Shown: positions 3,097-59,214 of the stretch, in pieces | How positions within the stretch are numbered: the first letter of the stretch is position 1 | Layout: each line of letters starts with the position of its first letter | Assembly (NCBI RefSeq): GCF_000614585.1 | Contig: NZ_BAKX01000007.1 | Coordinates: 1 to 64,000, forward strand | Length of the DNA stretch: 64,000 bases | Origin: Porphyromonas gingivicanis JCM 15907 | GTDB taxonomy: Bacteria; Bacteroidota; Bacteroidia; Bacteroidales; Porphyromonadaceae | Reading direction: 5' to 3' | Translations under genes and position numbers: made by a program | Notes under the pieces: model-generated | What the model was told of the DNA's origin: nothing | Seen by the model: only the letters and a program-made list of their open reading frames with translations | Databases searched by the model: none

Positions 3097-3184
3097 AAAA
3101 AGGGTCGTAGGTTCGGCTCAAAAGGATTAATGCTTCGCCTCAAAAGGATTAATCCTTAGCAACAAAAGGGTTAATGCTAAGAAA
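3097..3184 (+). repeat. 22-bp-phased intergenic array (4 units)
   Basis: Four consecutive 22-base units start at 3097, 3119, 3141 and 3163. Each begins with CAAAAGG (first unit AAAAAGG), followed in the last three by a TTAATGCTT-like block and a variable end. The same unit type and the same exact period recur at seven other intergenic loci in the window. The short reading frame that overlaps it (3149-3352, minus) is not a gene. Confidence 0.8.
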
Positions 3185-10846: not shown

Positions 10847-10934
10847 GATTTTATTTCAAACCTATAATCCTTAAGCGTGTTTGCACGGTAGGTTACACGC
10901 CTAACCATCGTACCTTTTGCTCCAAAGTATTATA
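10847..10934 (-). repeat. 22-bp-phased intergenic array (4 units)
   Basis: Units start at 10847, 10869, 10891 and 10913. On the minus strand they read CAAAAGG, then TACGATGGTTAGGCG, TGTAACC, TACCGTGCAAACACG, CTTAAGG, ATTATAG. The order of blocks matches the array at 22330-22439, so the two loci carry inverted copies of one composite element. It directly follows the terminator at 10801. Confidence 0.8.
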
Positions 10935-11353
10935 GGTGCTTCAGCAGAAAAGTAAAGCCTAATCTAACAAGCAATGCTGTAATCGACACATTGTAACACA
11001 CCATCGGCATGGCTCGACAAAGTCATCTTGCCCCTCTCTTTCCTCTTTCGTAAAAGAAACCGTCATTACAAAACAGTTTCAATACCTCAGCTCTCCCTCT
11101 CGCCCTTTTGAGAGAAAAATTGTTATCGAAGCTCGATAGCTCCTTTTAGAGAGTAGACAATAGGCTTTTTGTACCCTCTGCATTACAAATGGGCATAGAT
11201 TAACACTATTTTAATAGATTTTCTTTCAAATAATAGGAAATAATGGAAATAGTTACTAAATTTGAGAATATACACTCAAACTAAAAGATGGATTGAGAGT
11301 TGCGGTACTCGCCAATTATTTAGAAAAATTAGACGAAATAAAATACTACTCCT
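10935..11353. other. Intergenic region upstream of 11354
   Basis: No gene seen. A TAAATTTG -10-type element at 11257-11264 could drive the gene at 11354 with a leader of about 80 bases; no good -33 partner was found. Confidence 0.35.
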
Positions 11354-13473
11354 ATGAAAAAATCACTACTTTTTAGCCTTCTCCTCGTAGCATCAAGTTA
11401 CCCCTTGGTTCTGAGGACACAGGCACAGAGCATCACGCAACGCACACTGCCGAAAGAGAAGCTGTCATAACGGCTCAAAAATCCCAACAAATTGCCTCCG
11501 AGCTATACAAACCAGCTTTTCGTACCTCGATTACGTTGCCTCAAGAAAAAGGGCGAATGGCTACAATTCCCCTAAAGGAGGCCGACATTTGCGAAGTAGA
11601 AGTTGTCTTCCAGGCATTAGGAAATAGTACTCCTCTAAAGGTAACACTATACAATGCCCAAGAAATCTTTGACGTTAGCTATAAACCCAATCTAAAGATC
11701 AAAGTACCCAAAGGAACTTATGATATGCACGCTCTTTTCCAAAACAAAGCTGGGGTAGGACTCTACTTTGTATTCAAAGAGCAGGTAAAAATCGACAAGG
11801 ACCAGCAGATTGTATTTGACCAAAGCACTGCTACCCGACCTATAATTATCAAGTCGGTAGATGAGAACAACCAAGAACTCTTCCCCGATATTTACAGTGG
11901 AGGTAGTATTTACAAAAAGGGCAATCTGGTAGATATGGGTACTACCGACCTCTTCGTCCTCGATGGCGTAGGCGTAGTCGAAACCGTTTTCGGAGGGGCT
12001 TATCGCGTAAAAGAAATCGAAGCAGAGTTCTTTACCAACCCTGTAAGTGAGCGTTACCACTACTTTCAAGTACGTAGTTTACATACGGAAAAGAAAGATT
12101 ATTTCGTCCACTATCAAGGGGCTCTAAAAGATATATCCACCCTAACCAACGACCCCACACAGATCGCCCTACATACCCAAAAGTTTCTCCCCACAAAGGC
12201 TGGTCTACAAATGCCCCAAGCTCACATTCAGGGATACCAACTATGGGTACTCTTTAATAACAAAATCAAAGCCGTTGTGCGGTCGTACAACCCTGGGAAA
12301 AATCCTGCCAATGGAGTAACTGACTATTACATAGGGCTCCCTATGGTAAATGGGAGCAAGTTCAATGCCATGGTAAGCCCCTTGTTGGGAGATACCTACA
12401 ACGACGAATATGCAGAATATAGGTTTACAGTAGGTATCCCTGTAATGGGTAGCAAAGGGAAGCTACAACACGTTCACTACGGATACGATATATATGTAGA
12501 CTACACTGTACCCGAAGGAGGTGGCGAGGCAATAGGCTACCCGGGACACCCTAAATTTTCATTCTCGGCTCAAGAGACTCAACCTACCTATGGAGGTAGT
12601 GCCCCTATGGCATCGACCAAATTCAAGTACTACAACAATGGCGAAAGCACAATTGGGTGCGTATTCTTAGGGCGTTTTGGAGAGCAATACGAAACGGACT
12701 ATAGAACCTATGAGGAGAAAAGCTCCACAGAGTCAGGACGCCACATCCATACTATCAAAAGTAAGAATGCACAGGTCGATGGTCTCGAAGGGGGCGTAGA
12801 TGTAACTATGAACTACAATCCACAACAGGACGATAAAACCCCTCCAACGCCTCAAATGCTCACTTTCCGACATAGCAACGGAGCGCGTACCGATCGCTTC
12901 GCCAGTGCCGAAGAGGGACGTATCGAGCTGGCCGCTGGAGACTTTAACTATCACGATAACGAGGATTTATTCCAACGTTACTTCGACTGTAAGGAGATAA
13001 CTGCCAAGCTCTCTTTCTCTCCCTACCATGAAGAGAAGTGGACCTCTCTATCCCTCACAGAAGATCCATCGGGCTTTCATATGCCCGGCTTCGGTTATTT
13101 CTACTCTGCCTCTCTAAAAGCAGTAGGAGAGAAAGGGTTAAAAGCGAGGAAAGGTTGGTTTGATATTAAAATAGAACTCACAGACAAAGCAGGCAATACA
13201 CACACGCAAACGATTAGTCCTGCTTTCCAAATCGCAAACTTGACCTCTATCATCGAACCTATACAAGCCGACGATGCCTACTTCCGCATCACAGATCAAC
13301 ATTTAGAGGTTGTCCACATACCGAATGCCGAAATCAGCGTTTACACCTTAGAAGGGCAGTCTGTACTCCAAACTCACGCACAGAAGCTCTCTCTGGCTCT
13401 TCTTCCCAAAGGTTGTTACATCGTAAAGGCTTCCAATGGTGCTATTCTCATTACTACTAAATTGATTTTATAA
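11354..13473 (+). CDS. T9SS-secreted protein, paralogue A
   Basis: About 706 residues when one missing base near 11447 is restored. ATG at 11354 opens a signal peptide (MKKSLLFSLLLVASSYPLVL, cleavage near TQAQS), which an internal start at 11536 would lack. Mature segments such as PKGTYDMHALF, NPVSERYHYF, YPGHPKFSFSA and HMPGFGYFYSASL align throughout with the next gene (13512), showing tandem duplication. The C-terminal 70 residues are a T9SS type A domain (ISVYTLEGQSVLQTHA, LPKGCYIVKA). No catalytic site is recognised. It is probably a surface protein and co-transcribed with its paralogue 38 bases downstream. Confidence 0.75.
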
Positions 13474-13511: not shown

Positions 13512-15647
13512 ATGAAAAAGAAAATACTCATCTCCATTTTATCCCTTTTTGGAGTTTTGACCTATACCTCCACACAGGCACAACAGATTGTGGATTACTC
13601 CTCTATGGAGCCAACAAAAGGTAAGGAATTTCAAAGCGAATGGTCACTGATGCCTCAGCAAGGCTATACACGCCAAGAATTTTCCGATTGCACTGTCTAT
13701 TCTTTGCAAAGAGAACCGCTACGAGCAGATCTCAAGATGGTCAATATCACCCTTGAGTACAAAGCTATCAAAGATGGAAAGGGGACTTCCGTCTATGCCT
13801 TTAATAAGGAATTGGGGGGTATCAAACTCAGTGAAAACCCTCAAAGCAATACAATACAAGTACAAATACCTGAGGGGACATACGACTTTCAAGCAACATT
13901 TAGCAAAAGACCCACAGGTACTTATCTCTTATACAAAGAAAATGTAACCGTACAGGAGGGTATGACACTCGTTTTTGACCAAGCAGAATGTACCCACCAA
14001 GTAGTTATCAGAAACTTTGATGAAAACAATACGGAGCTAACCCTCGACATACATAACGGAAGTCAAGTCGAAGAGGGTAATGCCAAAGAGTATCGGAGCT
14101 ACACTTTTATTCTCCTCAAAGACTATGGTATTATGCACACTATGATAGGGGGCGAATATCGTATCAAAGGTTACCATCAACTGCTACACATCAATCCCGT
14201 CAGCGAGCGCATCAGCTTCGGACACGTATGCTCGATGAAAACCAAAGAGACCAATAAGAGATACATATTACGCTACGATGGTGTTTTGAACCAGAGTTTA
14301 GAGCTATCCAACAATCATCAAGATTTGAAGCTCTATCGACAAGCCTTTGCAGCAGCACCAGAAATCTCGGACAATGCTACAAGAGTCTTCGGTTTTCAAA
14401 TACACTGTGCAGGCTATGGAGCTTATGCCATTCGGGCAAAAGTGTTCAATCCCTCTCACGTGCTTGAAGATGGAATTAACGAACTCTATATCGACCTGCC
14501 CGAGCGACCTGAGACGAATTTCGTGGGAATGGTTAGCCCTCTCTGTGGCGACTTCCGAAAGAAAAACAACGCAGGCAAGTACGAGTACAAGTTCACCATT
14601 GGTACTCCCGTACTGGGCAATAGCAAGGAAGGTCTCAAATTTATAAACTTTGGCTACGACTCTTTGGGCGACCTGCTCGTACCCATAGGGGGAGGGAAAA
14701 GTATGATTTATCCCGGGCATCCCATCTTTACCTTCACAGATAAAGACACGGTAAACTTTATCCAAGGCAATAATACGCCTATTTTAGCACTGAAAATGAA
14801 AGATTATGATGGCAAATCGAGCAAGGTGCGCACATTTTTAGGTCGCTACGGAGAGATTCGAGAAGCGGTACTACAAACCTGCAAAGAAGAGCATAAGCAG
14901 GAGGGGGCATTTATGAAACATACCTATACGGCAGATAACATACAGGTAGACGACCTCCGAGGAAAAAACATTACCCAACTCTTATGCCAAACTTCGGGCG
15001 AAGATATTACAGCCCCTGCCATTCAGATGTTGCGCTTTGTCAATGGCAAGCAACAGGTTACCGACCGCTTCGGAACTCCTGCCGATGGCACGCTACAATT
15101 TTCTGCAGGCGACTTCATCTACCATCACGATGCTACAAACAGAGAAAAGCGTTACTTCAACTGCAAAAAAACTACCGTAGAGGTGCAGTATGCCGAGCAT
15201 GGCTCTGAGAATTGGAAAGCCCTCCCCGTGCAAGAAGTACCCGAAAACTATCGTATGCCGGGGTTCGGTTACTTCTATCAAGGCTCCTTGGCTCCCGTGA
15301 GTAAGTTAGAGACCCAATGGTACGACCTCACCATCATACTCACGGACGAAAGCGGTAATAAACATACGCAAACTATTAGCCCTGCTTTCAAAATCGACAA
15401 ATCGCTCACAGGCATTGAGCCTCTCCTTCCTGCCAACGAAAGTACTAATTTCCGCCTCGAAGAGGGCATACTCGAAGTGGTCAATATGGAACATCCACGC
15501 ATAAACCTATACGCATTGGACGGAACATTGCTGTTGCAGTCGGTGGGTAAACAAGTATCTACTGCGGGGTTAGCGCAAGGGGTCTACATCGTCCAAGCCG
15601 AAGAGGGAGGACGCACCCTATCGGGCAAGATTAGCATCACCCAATAA
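13512..15647 (+). CDS. T9SS-secreted protein, paralogue B
   Basis: 711 residues, intact. Signal peptide MKKKILISILSLFGVL ends near STQAQQ. It is collinear with the upstream protein: PEGTYDFQATF, NPVSERISFGH, YPGHPIFTFTD, RMPGFGYFYQGSL and the TQTISPAFKI end of the ectodomain all correspond. It ends with a T9SS type A domain (INLYALDGTLLLQSVG, LAQGVYIVQA). The repeated Gly/Tyr-rich strands suggest a beta-sandwich ectodomain. The function is unknown; a duplicated pair with conserved cores and divergent loops could reflect antigenic or ligand diversification, which is inference. Confidence 0.85.
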   Translation: MKKKILISILSLFGVLTYTSTQAQQIVDYSSMEPTKGKEFQSEWSLMPQQGYTRQEFSDCTVYSLQREPLRADLKMVNITLEYKAIKDGKGTSVYAFNKELGGIKLSENPQSNTIQVQIPEGTYDFQATFSKRPTGTYLLYKENVTVQEGMTLVFDQAECTHQVVIRNFDENNTELTLDIHNGSQVEEGNAKEYRSYTFILLKDYGIMHTMIGGEYRIKGYHQLLHINPVSERISFGHVCSMKTKETNKRYILRYDGVLNQSLELSNNHQDLKLYRQAFAAAPEISDNATRVFGFQIHCAGYGAYAIRAKVFNPSHVLEDGINELYIDLPERPETNFVGMVSPLCGDFRKKNNAGKYEYKFTIGTPVLGNSKEGLKFINFGYDSLGDLLVPIGGGKSMIYPGHPIFTFTDKDTVNFIQGNNTPILALKMKDYDGKSSKVRTFLGRYGEIREAVLQTCKEEHKQEGAFMKHTYTADNIQVDDLRGKNITQLLCQTSGEDITAPAIQMLRFVNGKQQVTDRFGTPADGTLQFSAGDFIYHHDATNREKRYFNCKKTTVEVQYAEHGSENWKALPVQEVPENYRMPGFGYFYQGSLAPVSKLETQWYDLTIILTDESGNKHTQTISPAFKIDKSLTGIEPLLPANESTNFRLEEGILEVVNMEHPRINLYALDGTLLLQSVGKQVSTAGLAQGVYIVQAEEGGRTLSGKISITQ

Positions 15648-15781: not shown

Positions 15782-15891
15782 GGTTTCGGTCAAAAGGGTC
15801 TATCCTTTTGTGGCTACCCCTTATACCTTTTGCTCCAAAGGACTATACCTTTTGTTGCCAACTATTCCCCCTTTTGTTTCTAAGGGTTGTA
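15782..15891 (-). repeat. 22-bp-phased intergenic array (5 units)
   Basis: On the plus strand CCTTTTG cores start at 15804, 15826, 15848 and 15870, exactly 22 apart, preceded by GGTTTCG at 15782. On the minus strand they read CAAAAGG followed by TATAAGGGGT-, TATAGTCCTT-type blocks. It lies between the convergent genes ending at 15647 and 15958, just after a terminator. Confidence 0.85.
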
Positions 15892-15957
15892 GCATTGCAC
15901 CGAACGGCTTGTGGAAGAGCGGCAATGGGGACTTACAGAGGAGGTGGGCGCCGAAGG

Positions 15958-21296: not shown

Positions 21297-21961
21297 TTAC
21301 TCTACAATAATACCATCACGAATATGTATGGTGCGGTCGCATAAAGCTGCCACACTACTCTCATGAGTAACTACGATAAGAGTTTTTCCCTCTTTATTGA
21401 CTCGCTTGAGAAGCTCCATAACCTCTACCGTAGTGGTACTATCGAGCGCACCCGTAGGCTCATCGGCAAGGATCACTTTAGGCTCGGTAACGAGGGCGCG
21501 TGCTATAGCAATGCGCTGCTTCTGCCCCCCCGAAAGCTCGCTGGGCAAGTGATGCCCCCACTCCTCCAACCCTACTGCTCGAAGGAGGGAAAGGGCTCGT
21601 TCGCGACGAAGAGAACGCGCCACCCCCTGATAGAAGAGGGGGAGGGCAATGTTCTCCACGGCATCTTTATACGCTATTAAGTTAAAAGATTGAAATACAA
21701 ATCCAATCTCTCGGCTTCGCACATAGGCAGCTTGGCTTTCCGTGAGATTACGTAGCGAACGCCCATCTAAGACATATTCGCCCTTATCGAAAGTGTCCAA
21801 GAGCCCCAGTATGTTAAGTAACGTACTTTTACCCGACCCCGATGCCCCCATTATGGCCACCATCTCACCCTCTTCTATTTGAGCATCAATACCCTTTAGT
21901 ACATGTAGCGGTTGCACACCCGGTAGGTTTTCTCTATACCGCTCAACTCTATCAGTGCCAT
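21297..21961 (-). CDS. ABC transporter ATP-binding protein (MacB/LolD type)
   Basis: About 221 residues. ATG at 21961 gives the expected start ([14 protein letters not shown]), but one base is missing near 21920 before [14 protein letters not shown]. Walker A is GASGSGKST, followed by Q-loop FVFQSFNLI, signature [15 protein letters not shown], Walker [13 protein letters not shown] and switch His in VVTHE, so it should be an active ATPase. It is the first gene of the five-gene export operon and powers the two FtsX-type permeases downstream. Confidence 0.9.
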
Positions 21962-22329: not shown

Positions 22330-22439
22330 TGTTTCCTATGATGGTTAGCCCCAAAAGGTATAATCATTCGAGGCAAAAGGTACGATGGTTATAGTCGAAA
22401 CCCTCCGTGCAAACATTCCCAAGGATTATACCCTCCAGA
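22330..22439 (+). repeat. 22-bp-phased intergenic array (5 units)
   Basis: Units start at 22330, 22352, 22374, 22396 and 22418 with cores TGTTTCC, CAAAAGG, CAAAAGG, CGAAACC and CCCAAGG, followed by TATGATGGTT-, TATAATCATT-, TACGATGGTT-, CTCCGTGCAAACATT and ATTATACCC blocks. The last three units correspond block for block to the inverted array at 10847-10934. Confidence 0.85.
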
Positions 22440-22552: not shown

Positions 22553-23849
22553 TTACTGCAATATATAGCGCAAGATGAGTAGCGCGGTTACAATGTAGAG
22601 CGTTACACTTACCTGCTTGCACTGTCCGCTCAAGAGCTTCACAAGGGTATAGCTAATGAGTCCAAGAGCCATACCTTCCGCAATGTTATAGGTAAGAATC
22701 ATCGTAATCATTGTAATAAAACTGGGCAGAGCTCCGACATATCCGAGAGGTCAATCTCCTGAATAGCACTCAGCATAAAGACCCCTACCAAGACGAGTGC
22801 CCCCGTAGTGGCAGCCGCAGGTATAAGCAAAAAGAGGGGCGAGAAGAAGAGAGCCAAGAGGAAGAGCATAGCGGTCGAAAATGAAGTAAGCCCTGTACGT
22901 CCCCCTTCGGCAATACCCGAAGCACTCTCCACAAAGGTTGTTACCGTAGAAGTACCGAGCATCGCTCCTGCCGAAGTAGCTACAGCATCTGCCATCATAG
23001 CGGCTTTGACATTCTTGACATTGCCCTTTTCGTCCATCATTTCGGTATTAGCAGCAGCTCCGATAAGCGTTCCTATGGTATTGAATATATCCATAAAAAC
23101 GAGTGCAAAGATGGTGAGCATCATATCCATATTGAAGATCGCGGCAAAGTCGAACTTCAAAAACGTGGGAGCCAAAGACTGTGGCATCGAAACAGGCAAG
23201 AATCCGTCAGGAATGTTGGTAACCCCCAAAGGAATACCCACCAGCGTACAGATAATAATACCATAGAAGAGCGCACCGCGCACCTTTAGGACAATAAGTA
23301 CAGCACTGATAACAATGCCTAACGAGGCGAGGATAGCCGTTGGCGTGAACTTGCCCAAGGCTACAAAAGTAGCCTCATTCGCAACGATGATACCTGCATT
23401 CTTCAGTCCGATAAAGGCAATGAACATACCGATACCTGCCGAGATGGCAAAGCGGAGGTTCTTCGGAATACAACGTACAATCTGCTCTCGAATGTTAAAT
23501 GCTGTCAGTAAGATGAAGATAATACCCTCAACGAAGACAGCAGTAAGCGCGGCTTCCCAGCTATATCCCATACCAAGTACAAGTGTAAAGGCAAAGAAAG
23601 CATTAATCCCCATACTGGGAGCTTGCGCAAAGGGTAGTTTGGCAAAGAAAGCTATCAATATAGTACCAATAGCCGAGGCAAGTGCTGTAGCAGTAAAGAC
23701 AGCGCCTTTATCCATACCCGTAGCACTGAGAATAGAAGGATTAACGGCAAGGATATAGCTCATTGTAAGAAAGGTAGTAAGCCCTGCTATAACCTCTGTG
23801 CGCACTTTGTGGCGTTCGGGAGAGAAGCTAATAGTTGCAAAAATTTCAT
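22553..23849 (-). CDS. NCS2-family hypoxanthine/guanine permease (AzgA-like)
   Basis: About 432 residues once two one-base gaps are closed: near 23843 in the start codon region (restoring MKIFATISFSPERHKVRTEV) and near 22732 (restoring DMSEALPSFITMITM and the last helices to RYILQ). Some twelve hydrophobic segments are present. Family markers include SYILAVNPSIL, QAPSMGINAFFAF, DIFNTIGTLIG and GTSTVTTFVESASGIAEGGRTG, typical of proton-coupled AzgA/PbuG purine permeases. Followed by a terminator. It sits with a Tsx-like porin and a uracil-xanthine permease, forming a nucleobase uptake block. Confidence 0.85.
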
Positions 23850-29573: not shown

Positions 29574-29639
29574 CAAAAGCTAAAACCGTTCGAGTCAAAA
29601 CTTACGATACTTTTAACCCAAAAGCTCCCCCAAAAGCTC
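29574..29639 (+). repeat. 22-bp-phased intergenic array (3 units)
   Basis: Units begin at 29574 (CAAAAGC), 29596 (CAAAACT) and 29618 (CCAAAAG). The cores keep exact 22-base spacing, and the second is followed by TACGATACTT. The array overlaps the left arm of the terminator at 29624. Confidence 0.65.
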
Positions 29640-33632: not shown

Positions 33633-33742
33633 AAAGAGGAGTGCTGCGTGGCATCAAAAGCTATAATCCTTTTGCGCAAAACCTATGATGGTTAGAAGCG
33701 TAAGGTATAAAGGTTACGAGGCTAAGGTATAATGACACCGAG
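33633..33742 (+). repeat. 22-bp-phased intergenic array (5 units)
   Basis: Cores at 33633 (AAAGAGG), 33655 (CAAAAGC), 33677 (CAAAACC), 33699 (CGTAAGG) and 33721 (GCTAAGG), each 22 apart, followed by TATAATCCTT, TATGATGGTT, TATAAAGGTT and TATAATGACA in the last four. It begins 70 bases after the rubredoxin terminator. The remaining gap to 34000 contains a TATATTTG promoter element at 33948-33955. Confidence 0.85.
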
Positions 33743-40395: not shown

Positions 40396-40842
40396 TTAGG
40401 ATTTTTCGCCCTTTTTCTTGCCCAAAGAGTTATAGGCGACATCAAGGAGACGATCGGCTCGCTCTAAGCGAACACCTTTGAGAGCTACTTTAACCTTCAC
40501 ACGAGGCGTATAGATGACCTTCGCCTTATCCACGAGGTCAATCCCCACTTTATCGGGGCTTTCAACGCCCGAACCTTTCTTCGCCGTGATGCTTGGACGA
40601 TAGGTGCCCATGTCGCCACAATCGACACTCTTACCTTCTTGGAGCAGGCGAATAAGCACCTTAGAAGTACGGTCAAACACCGCCTTAATATCAGCCGAAG
40701 AGATGGTCGTCTCGTCAGCCACAAGTTCGATAAACTCCTCAAACTTCACATCAGAATGCAAATGAATGGCAGGATACCAAAGCGTCTTGCCAGACCCTTT
40801 AACGAATGATGCCTTTCGCTCTACTGCTTTAATCTTAATCAT
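40396..40842 (-). CDS. HU-related DNA-binding protein
   Basis: 148 residues, longer than classical HU (about 90) and fitting the Bacteroidetes HU-like histone family. N-terminal PAIHLHSDVKFEEFIELVAD replaces the usual HU start; VFDRTSKVLIRLLQEGKSVDCGDMGTYRP is the helix-strand core; the arm region and basic C-terminus (YNSLGKKKGEKS) follow. It probably bends or coats DNA. A striking palindrome array (40900-40961) lies 57 bases upstream of its start and may be its operator. Confidence 0.85.
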   Translation of the reverse strand: MIKIKAVERKASFVKGSGKTLWYPAIHLHSDVKFEEFIELVADETTISSADIKAVFDRTSKVLIRLLQEGKSVDCGDMGTYRPSITAKKGSGVESPDKVGIDLVDKAKVIYTPRVKVKVALKGVRLERADRLLDVAYNSLGKKKGEKS

Positions 40843-40899
40843 AACAGCATAAATTGTTGGTTATAAATGTTTTCTACTATGCTTACGAAGGTAAATAAA

Positions 40900-40961
40900 T
40901 TTTCGTACGTGCGAAAATAATTTTTTGTACGTACAAAAATAAATTTCTATATATACAAAAA
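40900..40961. promoter_or_regulatory. Three palindromes at 22-bp spacing (operator-like)
   Basis: Site 1, 40900-40917: TTTTCGTAC-GTGCGAAAA (near-perfect). Site 2, 40922-40939: TTTTTGTAC-GTACAAAAA (perfect 18-bp palindrome). Site 3, 40944-40961: TTTCTATAT-ATACAAAAA (degenerate). Centres lie at 40908, 40930 and 40952, exactly 22 apart, so a dimeric protein would bind each on the same helix face. They sit upstream of the HU-like gene (minus) and after the cmr terminator. A fourth half-site, TTGCGAAAA, is at 40971-40979. Confidence 0.65.
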
Positions 40962-41136: not shown

Positions 41137-41976
41137 CTACTGTTTAGGCTTTTCTACGTCTATGAACTGACCATAGCCAACGTTGGTCTTTGCCCCAAGA
41201 CCAAAGTCGCAGATAATAGCTTTGAAGAGCTCTTCCTTAAAATCTGCTATTAATACTTTATCGTCATCTTTCAGAGAAATGGAATCTTTGAGAACAACCT
41301 TGTCATCTAAGTCAACATGATCTTTCAAGATAAAGCGAAACTGATAGGTTACACCCGGATTGACCCTCAAAAAGCGTATAGGATTGGGATTTTTCAAGGG
41401 CTTGGAATGGGGGGTGATGTAGTCCTCTCCAAAGAGTTTGTTATCTACTTTTACAGGAATGGCATCGAGAAAAATGTCTCTGTCGTAAATGGAAAGCCCA
41501 TCCCCCTCAAAGACAGCCCGAATAATTGCTTTACGTAGAACATCTCTATCGGATAGACTGGCTGGAAGGGTTTTCTCTTCTTTGGGTTTGTAATCTGCAA
41601 GGAAGTCCCACTCTTCGATGGCAGAGCGTAGCATCCCTTTGATAGAAGAACCGGGGATAACGGGCAAACCCGACGTATAGTCGAAGTACATCCCAAGGTT
41701 ATAAACCTCTGGGGCATCCTCTTTATCCCCCTCATCTTTAGGTTTGTTTATCTCGTGGTGATAGCCCACACCACAGAGCAACCCCGGATAGCAGGTCTTT
41801 AGCTCGAAGCTCTTTATCCCTTGAATATTCACTTCTTCGTTGTGGGGAAGTAGGGGCTCCTCATTTAATTTATCATTCTTTCCTTTATTGAACGTAGAGA
41901 AGTTGGTTACAATGCCCTCACTATTGAGTTTTATCGTATTGAAATATTCTCGATAGTACCAGTATCCAAAATTCAT
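41137..41976 (-). CDS. cmr6: Type III-B CRISPR RAMP protein Cmr6
   Basis: 279 residues. Cas7-type RAMP markers: GLLCGVGYHHEI near residue 70, the PVIPGSSIKGMLRSAIEEW motif (residues about 105-125) and the C-terminal glycine loop CDFGLGAKTNVGYGQF typical of Cmr6. It caps the Cas7 backbone of the crRNA-guided Cmr complex near the 3' end of the target duplex. Its ATG overlaps the stop of the repaired cmr5 frame (ATGA), showing translational coupling. It is the last gene of the operon and is followed by a terminator. Confidence 0.9.
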   Translation of the reverse strand: MNFGYWYYREYFNTIKLNSEGIVTNFSTFNKGKNDKLNEEPLLPHNEEVNIQGIKSFELKTCYPGLLCGVGYHHEINKPKDEGDKEDAPEVYNLGMYFDYTSGLPVIPGSSIKGMLRSAIEEWDFLADYKPKEEKTLPASLSDRDVLRKAIIRAVFEGDGLSIYDRDIFLDAIPVKVDNKLFGEDYITPHSKPLKNPNPIRFLRVNPGVTYQFRFILKDHVDLDDKVVLKDSISLKDDDKVLIADFKEELFKAIICDFGLGAKTNVGYGQFIDVEKPKQ

Positions 41977-49361: not shown

Positions 49362-49449
49362 CAAAAGGTATAAAGGTTACTCTCCCAAGGGTTAATGCTT
49401 AAAGCAAAAAGGTACGATGGTTTTGCCCCTAACCATTGTACCTTTTGAA
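49362..49449 (+). repeat. 22-bp-phased intergenic array (4 units)
   Basis: Cores at 49362 (CAAAAGG), 49384 (CCCAAGG), 49406 (AAAAAGG) and 49428 (CCTAACC), followed by TATAAAGGTT, GTTAATGCTT, TACGATGGTT and ATTGTACCTT. The same blocks occur in the arrays at 3097, 22330 and 33633. Confidence 0.85.
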
Positions 49450-56240: not shown

Positions 56241-56711
56241 ATGGAATACAGAAAAGGATTATACCTACTTTTATCCGTAGGATTGTCTCTATTGTCCTTA
56301 ATGGCATGTCAGAGTAGTAACACAAGCAATAGAGAGCAAACCATCGAGGAGGTTCAAATAAAAGAGACTCCACTGGGAAAGGCTATCACCGAAGGGATGG
56401 AAAAATACCCTACCGAAGATTTTTACATCCTACACATAGCTTCGTCCGATGAGTATCTTGCCATGAGTCAAGAAGAGTATAAGGTATCGGAGGCTTTTGC
56501 CCATCTTGTAGTGAGAAAAAATAGCGACTCCCAAGCAGGAGAGCCTCTAACAGATGAAAGTTGGAGCATAGGAGGCAAAGGAAAGGAGCAGTCCGAAGCT
56601 ATGCGAATAGCCTATGAGCTGACCAACTCCCTCGAAGTCGATAAAAACTTTGAAATTTACGTTGAGTACCAAAAAGAGGGTACTTTCACCGTTAAGTACA
56701 GAACAGAATAA
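56241..56711 (+). CDS. Small lipoprotein, unknown
   Basis: 156 residues. Signal MEYRKGLYLLLSVGLSLLSL with lipobox LMAC, then an acidic, Ser/Thr/Glu-rich mature part with strand-like segments (EDFYILHIASSDEYLA, FEIYVEYQKEGTFTVKY). No recognised domain. It has its own promoter and a strong terminator 27 bases downstream, so it appears monocistronic. Confidence 0.7.
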   Translation: MEYRKGLYLLLSVGLSLLSLMACQSSNTSNREQTIEEVQIKETPLGKAITEGMEKYPTEDFYILHIASSDEYLAMSQEEYKVSEAFAHLVVRKNSDSQAGEPLTDESWSIGGKGKEQSEAMRIAYELTNSLEVDKNFEIYVEYQKEGTFTVKYRTE

Positions 56712-56887: not shown

Positions 56888-57019
56888 CACGACCCTCCGA
56901 AGTAGCTTTTGAAACCTACGTTGCAAACTCGCAAAACCATTAAAGCAAACTCTCGAAACCTACGTTGTAAACTCGCAAAACCATTAAAGCAAACTTTCAG
57001 AACCCTCCGAGTAAAATTG
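56888..57019 (+). repeat. 22-bp-phased intergenic array (6 units)
   Basis: Cores at 56888 (CACGACC), 56910 (TGAAACC), 56932 (CAAAACC), 56954 (CGAAACC), 56976 (CAAAACC) and 56998 (CAGAACC), all 22 apart. Units 2-3 and 4-5 form a nearly identical 44-base direct repeat (TACGTTG-AAACTCG and ATTAAAGCAAACT blocks). A further core pair 22 apart in another phase is at 57109 and 57131. The rest of the gap up to mnmG contains only a TAATTTTG promoter element (57291-57298). Confidence 0.85.
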
Positions 57020-57332
57020 CCCCACCCTACTCAAGAGGGAACAACACCTTCCGAAAAGTTGGCGAAGCTCTCCCTCTCAAACAACTAAACATAATTGAGA
57101 CCCTCCTTCAAAAGTTTTATGCACTCCCCTACGAACCTTTTAGTAAAAACGCGGTTATACTAATGTAAAAAGTCGCCCGAAAGGCTTGTAATCACCTGAT
57201 TATAAGAAGTATAAGAGCGCAACCAACGCTCCGAGGAAACAAGGCAACGAGACTCCTTTGGGCGCCATACGCTACTAATCGGTAAATAACTAATTTTGCT
57301 TTGATAATAACCATTGCTCCAAGGAGAAGAAA

Positions 57333-59214
57333 ATGACGCATACTTTTGATTACGATATTATAGTAGTAGGAGGTGGGCACGCAGGGTGCGAGGCAGCAGC
57401 TGCGGCAGCTACGTTAGGTTCGCACGTGCTACTCATCACCCACGATATGAACAAAATAGCCCAGATGAGCTGTAACCCCGCTATGGGAGGTATAGCCAAA
57501 GGCAGATCGTTCGTGAGATAGATGCCCTCGGGGGCTTGTCGGGCATCGTTTCGGATGCCTCCTCCATTCAGTTTCGGATGCTCAATAGGAGCAAAGGGCC
57601 TGCTATGTGGAGCCCTCGTGCCCAAATAGATCGTATGCGTTTTATGGAGCAATGGAGGCAAAAGCTCGATGCTATTGAACAGCTCGATATGTGGCAAGAC
57701 AGTGTACTACAACTCATCTTCGACGGAGAGAACGTAGTAGGCGTAGAGACCGCTCTGAAGAAAAAGTTCTATGCTCCGAAAGTTATCCTCACCGTAGGTA
57801 CGTTTTTGGGTGGATTGATGCACTTCGGCTCTACCATGCTACCAGGAGGACGGGTCAGCGAACCCGCTTCGTACGGCATTACCGACCAACTGATTCAAAT
57901 GGGTTTCGTGGCAGGACGTATGAAAACAGGTACTCCTGCTCGCATCGACGGCCGTAGCGTGGATTGGAGTCTCACTACCCTACAAGAGGGCGATGCAGAG
58001 TTTAACGCTTTCTCCTTCCTATCTACGCCCGATATGCCTCGGATGCCTCAACTTCCTTGCCATATCCTCTACACCAATGAGGAATGCCACGAAATATTGC
58101 GAGGTTCGCTCGACGAATCGCCCCTCTATAATGGTCAAATAGATAGTATCGGACCTCGTTACTGCCCAAGTATAGAGACGAAAATCGTAACCTTTGCGGA
58201 CAAAACAGCCCATCAGCTCTTCCTTGAACCCGAAGGTGCGGTTACCAATGAGTATTACCTCAATGGATTCTCCTCTTCTCTGCCGATGGAGACACAAATC
58301 AAAGCGCTCAAAAGCATTCCAGCCCTCCGTAATGTGCGTATCTACCGACCGGGGTATGCCATCGAATACGACTATTTCGACCCTACACAGCTACAACATA
58401 CACTTGAAACCAAACAGATAGCAGGGCTCTACTTTGCAGGTCAAATCAACGGAACTACAGGCTACGAAGAAGCCGCAGGACAAGGACTCATAGCTGGCAT
58501 CAACGCTCACAATGCTCTAAAAGGTAGAGAACCTTTCATTTTAGGACGTAATGAAGCTACATAGGAGTACTCATTGACGATCTTGTAACGAAAGGGGTAG
58601 ATGAACCCTACCGTATGTTTACCTCACGAGCAGAGTTCCGCACGCTCCTTCGCCAAGACAATGCCGACGAAAGACTCACACCCAAAGCTATCGAACTCGG
58701 TTTAGCTTCGGCAGAGAGGATAGAGCATTTCACGCAAAAGCAAACCGCTATTCAGAAGCTAATCGCCTTTACGAGCCAGTACTCTGTCAAGCCCGAATTG
58801 GTCAATAGTACGCTGGAAGAGATTGGAGAGCAACCCCTAAAACATGCCATCAAACTGAGAGAATTTTTGTTGCGCACGAAGGTAACCTTCGACCTCGCCC
58901 TGCGTTTGCTTCCAGAGGTCAAAGCAAAAGCCGAAAAAGTTGCACAGAAGCGTAAAGAAGTTATCGAAGCCTCTGAGATTGCCATCAAATATGCGGGTTA
59001 TATAGAGCGAGAGAAACTGCAAGCCGACAAGATGGTTCGTTTGGAAAACATAAAACTGGGCGATCGTTTCGACTATCTCAAAATCGAAAGCCTATCCACC
59101 GAAGCGCGCCAAAAGTTGGACAAGATACGCCCCATCACCATAGGGCAAGCGGCACGCATACCGGGGGTTTCTCCACACGACATTAGTATTTTGATTGTTT
59201 TGTGTCAGAAGTAA
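57333..59214 (+). CDS. mnmG: tRNA uridine-34 carboxymethylaminomethyl enzyme MnmG
   Basis: 627 residues after restoring one base near 57503 (C for [19 protein letters not shown]) and one near 58560 (T for [15 protein letters not shown]). FAD motif [41 protein letters not shown] and [17 protein letters not shown] are all present, as is the C-terminal domain ([13 protein letters not shown]). With MnmE it modifies the wobble U of certain tRNAs. Next to uvrC; a parS-like site lies 10 bases beyond its stop. Confidence 0.92.

Follow-up and report, generated by a model that had tools for sequence, protein, structure and literature searches.

The 64,000-nucleotide stretch of the Porphyromonas gingivicanis JCM 15907 genome analysed here (the window; contig C29 of a 2.05-Mb assembly in 35 contigs, 88.5% complete with 5.4% contamination) carries at 22330-22439 an array of four to five 22-bp units, placed between two open reading frames (ORFs), 21297-21917(-) and 22553-22711(-). 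Our matrix calls positions 22352-22437 of this array, and a more degenerate unit at 22330 extends it. An initial annotation of the window had listed eight such loci, and all eight are present, seven of them recovered by a palindrome matrix chained at 22 bp. Four units each are found at 3097-3182 (score 65.5, TRF period 22), 10856-10941 (score 26.4) and 49362-49447 (score 63.4, the final two units mutually inverted), five each at 15791-15898 (in a convergent gap) and 33633-33740, both scoring 58.6, and two scored units form a weak array at 29574-29615 (score 23.3). Positions 10863-10934, within the 10856 array, share 76% identity on the opposite strand with part of the 22330 array. The remaining locus, which had been placed at 56888, is missed by the matrix and is visible through its TRF and autocorrelation period as a 22/44-bp array at 56891-57058, built mainly of other half-site types (GCAAAC, GAAACC). 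The same annotation had described all of these arrays as intergenic, and this is what we find: none of the seven called arrays overlaps a called ORF, and the 56888 array sits between ORFs 56301-56711 and 57333-57521.

The window also contains a gene at 40396-40842, on the minus strand, that matches both the HU_rel and the HU-HIG profiles (TIGR01201 / PF18291) and encodes a paralog of the HU-HIG group of the HU/IHF superfamily. Directly upstream of it, at 40893-40961, lies a 22-bp array of another class, TTTTTGTACGTACAAAAAATTA, with an autocorrelation of 0.76 at lag 22 and its end 42 bp before the gene match; this gene is probably the owner of that class. Its direct neighbour, at 41137-41976, is the Cmr6 gene belonging to a type III-B CRISPR system, and in P. 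crevioricanis repeats resembling a CRISPR array (AATAGTCTGTAGGGCTATTGAGAC; L017:3320-3520) lie near the matching gene. The intergenic region that holds the 3097 array contains a further, different array at 2588-2872, with TTATC about every 11 bp (TTATCNACAG / TTATC) in some 13 units of 22 bp; its flanking ORFs have no HU match, and it slightly resembles repeated DnaA boxes. Tandem paralogs of 36% identity occupy 11536-13473 and 13512-15647; the first carries a weak T9SS sorting tail, and of the 38 family genomes just two others have a relative of the second, in one case only a weak match. An Rfam scan of the window returned a tRNA as its sole match. For one protein compared, the nearest named hit is P. 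crevioricanis, at 88% amino-acid identity.

We refer to the 22-bp class of the window as F1. Its unit is a 20-bp dyad, CRAAASS-N6-SSTTTYG, recurring every 22 bp, in which 11-bp half-sites face each other in turn; the half-sites are of several types (AAAGGTAT, AAACCATT, AAAGGGTT, AAACCCTC, GTTTGCAC and others), mixed inside single arrays. The initial annotation had proposed a unit made of a 7-bp core, a TAYRATGGTT-like block and variable bases; the 22-bp length is retained here, and the composition is corrected to a dyad of half-sites. Trained on the window and 60 stretches from elsewhere in the same genome (50 picked by single-unit matches and 10 by BLAST with the 22330 array), the F1 matrix converged to the palindrome CRAAASSTWTAATSSTTTTG, where S is mostly a GG or CC pair. 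Because the matrix counted both strands, which favours symmetry, we rechecked the dyad on one strand only. Following 79 left arms ([CT][AG]AAASS) in arrays, G or C stands at position 14 in 87% of cases and at 15 in 84%, and T at position 16 in 82% and at 17 in 84%, whereas after 35 left-arm words in array-free intergenic DNA T occupies positions 16-17 in only 17% and 23%. A CRISPR array, which would have near-identical repeats and unique spacers of similar length, was considered as an identity and rejected: F1 units vary in sequence and are separated by links of only 2 bp.

Although F1 units differ strongly in sequence, they hold an exact 22-bp phase. Within the window there are 12 unit pairs at 22 bp, 10 at 44 and 4 at 66, with one at 23 and a few other distances seen once each, and the reversed window has none at 22, 44 or 66 bp. 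Adding the 60 stretches gives 94 pairs at 22 bp, 63 at 44, 37 at 66, 8 at 88 and 4 at 110, against one each at 21 and 23 bp; the reversed control never has more than three at one distance. In the autocorrelation spectrum, too, lag 22 stands out as the outlier, together with the multiple 44. The two-unit F1 pattern has 97 matches in the genome (overlapping unit pairs, not arrays), and its reversal has none. The spacing of exactly 22 bases claimed at the outset is therefore borne out, and it is far tighter than these controls would give by chance.

There are 62 called arrays, one of them a single unit; they come from the window and from 54 of the fetched stretches, the other six having no array over the cut and hence not contributing. 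With genes called by a custom hexamer script, none of the 62 array midpoints falls in a called gene, though coding sequence makes up 77% of those stretches. By type of gap, 32 arrays lie between tandem genes, 18 between divergent and 11 between convergent genes, and one at an edge, roughly as intergenic length predicts; no promoter or orientation preference of F1 arrays emerges across the 62. In 27 of the 32 tandem gaps the array is closer to the upstream stop (median 95 bp) than to the next start (254 bp), and in divergent gaps the nearest start to any array is 107 bp away, distances which indicate that arrays mostly avoid the region just before starts, not gene ends. Intrinsic terminators (a GC-rich hairpin followed by a T run) were rejected as an identity, being found in two of the 62 arrays, against none in the reversed control, and in four of 52 stop-to-array gaps, the same as in the reversed control.

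The array upstream of the HU-HIG gene in the window has many counterparts. An HU_rel profile search of six Porphyromonadaceae genomes returned 50 genes, 28 of which have an upstream array (21-23-bp period, autocorrelation of at least 0.58, within 420 bp), compared with 28 of 462 control genes (odds ratio 19.7, p 1.7e-17); eight genomes, in 35 stretches, supplied the controls. Seven of ten genomes from other Bacteroidales families gave HU_rel matches (67, of which only the 30 with loci were examined), and three of the ten gave none at the cut used. Pooled, with lags of 15-30 searched, arrays lie upstream of 44 of 80 HU_rel genes and downstream of 10 of 73, and upstream of 29 of 479 controls once these HU genes are removed; the odds ratio stratified over eight genomes is 22.5 (z 10.1). 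Within Porphyromonadaceae the counts are 28/50 upstream and 1/46 downstream, and in the other families 16/30 and 9/27, so the upstream preference is weaker in the latter. At the cut used, 36 of the 80 genes have no upstream array. All 36 HU-HIG members that were scanned are PF18291 proteins. The upstream arrays are palindromic, with a mean fraction of 0.65 of positions paired at the best dyad and 32 of 44 reaching 0.6, against a mean of 0.42 and a 95% point of 0.50 for random 77-mers from the window.

By inspection, most paralogs have an upstream array of distinct sequence, and in some the period differs as well. Period clusters on a tree of 44 HU proteins (the 45 of a motif comparison that searched lags 20-24 and for that reason has one gene more than the pooled set, minus one truncated protein), with nine changes against a shuffled mean of 13.9; not one of 200 shuffles had so few. 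The correlation between motif and protein similarity is weak (Mantel r 0.12, reached in 2 of 2000 permutations), with a rise only among close relatives; if these proteins do read the arrays, specificity must therefore change fast. When 12 arrays outside HU promoters were compared with the HU upstream regions of their own genomes, five matched one region at 19-20 of 20 bases, the next best reaching 15-16. These clear owners are the genes at 961559 and 1574605 in G006 (for arrays L114 and L115), C13:123820 in G004 (L125), C17:10799 in G003 (the 21-bp array L180) and C5:919063 in G028 (L120). No owner is clear for the remaining seven, whose best matches reach 14-17 of 20 bases, one in G006 being marginal (L116:15485, 17 against 16); the ownerless arrays include the class behind 89 pattern hits in G028 and the second 22-bp class of G003.

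The window's own genome has eight HU_rel and nine HU-HIG matches, and only one of the nine HU-HIG genes is preceded by an F1 array: C33:334353-334820(-), at locus L230, which encodes 156 aa. That array consists of three units in exact 22-bp phase with a chain score of 38.3, against at most 9.0 for the seven other HU_rel genes, 3.8 for the ninth HU-HIG match and 16.0 for the maximum of the reversed-window null. It is short, its plain autocorrelation is 0.56 at both lag 23 and lag 22, and its half-sites are closer to an AAAGC variant than to the commonest dispersed ones. The L230 protein scores 60.0 bits against PF18291 (cut-off 26.2), and its AlphaFold monomer (pLDDT 84) is predicted to have an HU fold with two extra N-terminal strands; the best Foldseek matches to the model among solved structures are 6n2l (a histone-family protein), 4fmr (a Bacteroides DNA-binding protein) and HU proteins, the hits including 5lvt and 1p71. 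Judged by profile and predicted structure, the protein is a member of the HU-HIG clade. We propose G000:C33:334353-334820(-), G000 being this genome, as the cognate gene of F1, with binding inferred in the absence of binding data.

Upstream arrays recur among the relatives of L230 (orthologs and closer paralogs, 50 to 100% identity): a 21-23-bp array precedes 26 of 28 at an autocorrelation cut of 0.55 and 22 of 28 at the 0.58 used elsewhere, with 33 of 462 controls positive at 0.55. These 28 are the matches examined upstream out of 59 to the L230 protein, two further loci, one a 33% match and the other a fragment of 80 aa, having been excluded, and at least eight of them are already among the 80 pooled HU_rel genes. 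Many L230 orthologs show an AAA..TTT frame in their upstream arrays, and in the tree, from which L230 itself is absent, the clade of its protein's relatives has a 22-bp period in 10 of 10 cases. Of 12 genomes whose L230 ortholog is at least 73% identical, 10 have the F1 pattern, scored as any match, against 3 of the 26 other genomes (p 3e-5); this identity cut was chosen after viewing the list. Three genomes (G018, G028, G034) have the pattern without a close ortholog, and in three (G003, G006, G029) the reversed pattern is at least as frequent as the pattern itself. The L230 orthologs of G006 (C1:1586885-1587352) and G007 (C2:21110-21535) carry an in-frame stop; these genomes have seven and eight F1-pattern hits, against 97 in the genome of the window.

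Arrays of other classes are found among relatives. Stretches of 20 kb revealed 22- or 23-bp arrays of quite different units in six of ten other Bacteroidales (G002, G004, G006, G007, G010, G028) and a 21-bp array in G096, with no clear array in the stretches from G029, G201 and G293. The stretches of one set were placed at round coordinates on contigs with known hits, and two (L123, L125) contain a known hit. Just past yifB, L143 (G016) and L163 (G027) have 22-bp arrays built on other palindromes (CTGA..TCAG and GACAG..CTGTC). Long arrays of near-identical 22-bp units occur in G010, G028 and G004 (L101:1484-1740, L103:1496-1816, L108), which suggests recent tandem growth, unlike the drifted short arrays described here. 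A general AAA-N10-TTT pattern, applied to 295 Bacteroidales genomes, proved too weak in AT-rich genomes for arrays to be counted.

In G003, the nearest relative, 375 kb of sequence gave counts of 19 for a lag of 21 bp, 16 for 22, 15 for 42 and 8 for 44, with at most seven for any other. This genome has few F1 arrays; it has a 21-bp class (TATATTCAATCTAAATATATG) and a second 22-bp class (AAACT..AGTTT), for which matrices drifted without clean convergence and no HU gene was assigned. At orthologous intergenic sites, G003 has an array at 11 of 15 F1 sites and at 2 of 15 non-F1 sites (p 0.0025). About ten distinct G003 arrays underlie the 11 positive sites and two of them include F1 units, so the class mostly differs; the counterpart of the 22330 array, for example, is an array of the second 22-bp class (L166:2402-2514). 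In this one relative, then, array position is often kept at orthologous sites while the class is swapped. The comparison is only a rough one: its sites depend partly on one another, one of 31 was left out (an own-genome site that holds another array class), L052 was scored negative although its F1 array aligns in G003, and one of the two positive controls is the 56888 array. At the yifB locus G003 has no array, and other arrays lie nearby in a few other species; as a synteny anchor, the gene at 13512-15647 is not conserved.

What we have computed comprises the phase, the dyad, the intergenic position, the enrichment upstream of HU genes, the presence of F1 at one HU gene, the sorting of period by clade and the positions kept in one relative. 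The reading we prefer, to which we give a probability of roughly 0.7, is that one HU-HIG paralog binds the arrays and that its dimers would line up on one face of the DNA at the paralog's own promoter and at many intergenic sites; the binding itself is inferred. Each 22-bp unit would be a dyad site for a single dimer, and successive dimers, two helical turns apart, would be aligned on one face, probably with cooperativity. That a protein binds one DNA face had been suggested by the initial annotation, and the suggestion is supported by the fixed phase despite drift, the dyad unit, the association with HU genes and the lack of any sign of RNA pairing. On this proposal F1 before the gene at L230 would reflect autoregulation, and the dispersed arrays between transcription units would most likely nucleate a short, sequence-specific nucleoprotein filament. 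We favour a role for such putative filaments in marking or insulating transcription-unit boundaries because arrays avoid the region before starts, not gene ends, and occupy all types of gap; alternatively, they would regulate genes locally. The genome's remaining paralogs would have array classes of their own, with periods of 21, 22 or 23 bp. Like binding, the cooperativity, the autoregulation and whatever part the dispersed copies may play in insulation, packaging or regulation are inferences made without binding or expression data.

It is possible, though unlikely, that the arrays are operators of another DNA-binding protein and that HU-HIG genes are merely among its frequent targets. The binding partner has not been directly identified, seven of the 12 compared arrays lack a clear HU owner, and 36 of the 80 HU genes lack an array; against the preferred reading it also counts that ordinary genes have upstream arrays too (29 of 479 controls). 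However, a single regulator would give one class, yet HU paralogs of the same genome mostly carry different arrays; moreover, period tracks HU clade, and F1 stands at the L230 paralog alone. We find it harder still to accept that the arrays are neutral or selfish minisatellites, perhaps MITE-borne like the BrickBuilt element of P. gingivalis (described as such in the part of PMC4596501 available), which expanded by slippage and survive only between genes. Such an origin would suit the intergenic position of every called array and the tandem growth plain in some relatives' arrays, but it sits poorly with strongly differing units in exact phase, with the retention of arrays at orthologous sites as their class changes and with the strong tie to HU genes. 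A MITE was also rejected as an identity for F1, there being no similar pairs among the 124 flanks (250 bp each) of the 62 arrays and no shared leader or tail. HU prefers bent DNA, and many classes contain phased AAA/TTT tracts, so an element of DNA shape (phased A/T tracts, curvature) read by ordinary HU without sequence specificity might be imagined; several HU-upstream arrays have no A-tracts, however (for example L193 and L205 of G010 and L295 of G096), and shape alone would need no paralog-specific sequences, which leaves this reading very improbable. An RNA-level element (a hairpin, intrinsic terminator or Rho site after genes) would be in keeping with the proximity of arrays to the upstream stop in co-directional pairs, but is scarcely credible given arms that are mostly non-complementary (59 CC..CC and 49 GG..GG units against 47 GG..CC), no pairs from RNAalifold on 15 arrays, terminator-like hairpins in so few arrays and the many arrays that lie between divergent genes.

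If the arrays are indeed HU-HIG binding sites, a broader and more tentative picture can be drawn, to which we would give somewhat less than even odds: a sequence-coded chromatin of the Bacteroidales in which each HU-HIG paralog has a private, two-turn palindromic array, placed at the paralog's promoter and at set sites between genes, with the sites kept in evolution and the class swapped. Within this picture, the conservation of position during changes of class implies that proteins and arrays co-evolve fast, somewhat as satellite DNA does with its binding proteins. Were binding confirmed, the arrays would amount to a sequence-coded form of bacterial chromatin, and many HU paralogs, each with a private phased DNA code, would change the picture of HU as non-specific. 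The HU-HIG expansions would also gain a suggested function, as would BrickBuilt and other orphan repeats, and matched pairs of protein and DNA with set repeat lengths would form a natural series in which to study the evolution of specificity.

How does this compare with known systems? The HU-HIG clade of the DNABII superfamily (PF18291 / TIGR01201) was reportedly described in 2017 by Burroughs and others, and the proposed binders fit it by profile, L230 also by predicted fold. Searches of the published literature, mostly without subscription journals and preprints, found neither arrays nor paralog-specific sites for HU-HIG proteins, and nothing tying such arrays to HU proteins; they did find BrickBuilt. 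HU is the textbook non-specific histone-like protein of bacteria. It is generally taken as non-specific and IHF as sequence-specific (see also PMC3969353), and for the P. gingivalis HU protein PG0121 the introduction to that article states that sequence-specificity at an inverted repeat of the capsule locus had been unknown; the word 'tandem' is absent from its text.

REP/BIME elements are dispersed, intergenic, palindromic and species-specific, and cluster in alternating orientation, traits which F1 arrays resemble. F1 differs in its exact 22-bp grid, and REP/BIME with RAYT was rejected as its identity: the arms do not pair, and the 88.5% complete assembly has no match to the Y1 transposase (PF01797). 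Matches to this transposase were present in only 3 of 23 other genus members searched. Another system to compare with the proposed HU-HIG filaments is BldC, a small DNA-binding protein which, according to the part of PMC5859096 available, forms cooperative multimers on direct repeats at sites of variable length. The small protein, the cooperative multimers and the variable length of the sites are points in common; unlike the putative HU-HIG binders of F1, with their HU fold and dyad units, BldC is MerR-like and arranged head-to-tail on direct repeats.

The initial annotation knew of no named element that matches the arrays, and this largely stands, the exception being BrickBuilt. As far as the accessible part of PMC4596501 shows, BrickBuilt is a dispersed intergenic minisatellite within a MITE of P. 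gingivalis, with imperfect 23-nt tandem repeats at 19 loci, and leader and tail portions in 11 of the 19 elements. The article mentions that repeats of 41, 23 and 22 nt had already been reported in strain W83, giving no locations; HU proteins are not discussed in it, and the terms 'histone', 'HU protein' and 'IHF' do not occur. The shortest complete element, BrickBuilt_14 (84 nt), lies between PGN_0871 and PGN_0872, on the 5' side of the latter, a plus-strand DNA-binding gene of the HU family (PF00216). In G006, probably P. gingivalis, we find a 23-bp array directly upstream of the HU_rel gene at 961559(+) and the same class, identical at 20 of 20 bases, at 218427, roughly the places expected from gene numbers for BrickBuilt_14 and BrickBuilt_2. 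From the article's table and these approximate positions, without the BrickBuilt sequence itself, we infer that BrickBuilt is the array class of the HU_rel paralog at 961559. It differs from F1 in its 23-nt repeat, against a period of 22, and in its leader and tail, where F1 has no shared flanks; like F1, it is intergenic, dispersed and made of imperfect tandem repeats, and on the part of the source available it is probably a sister class of the arrays described here.
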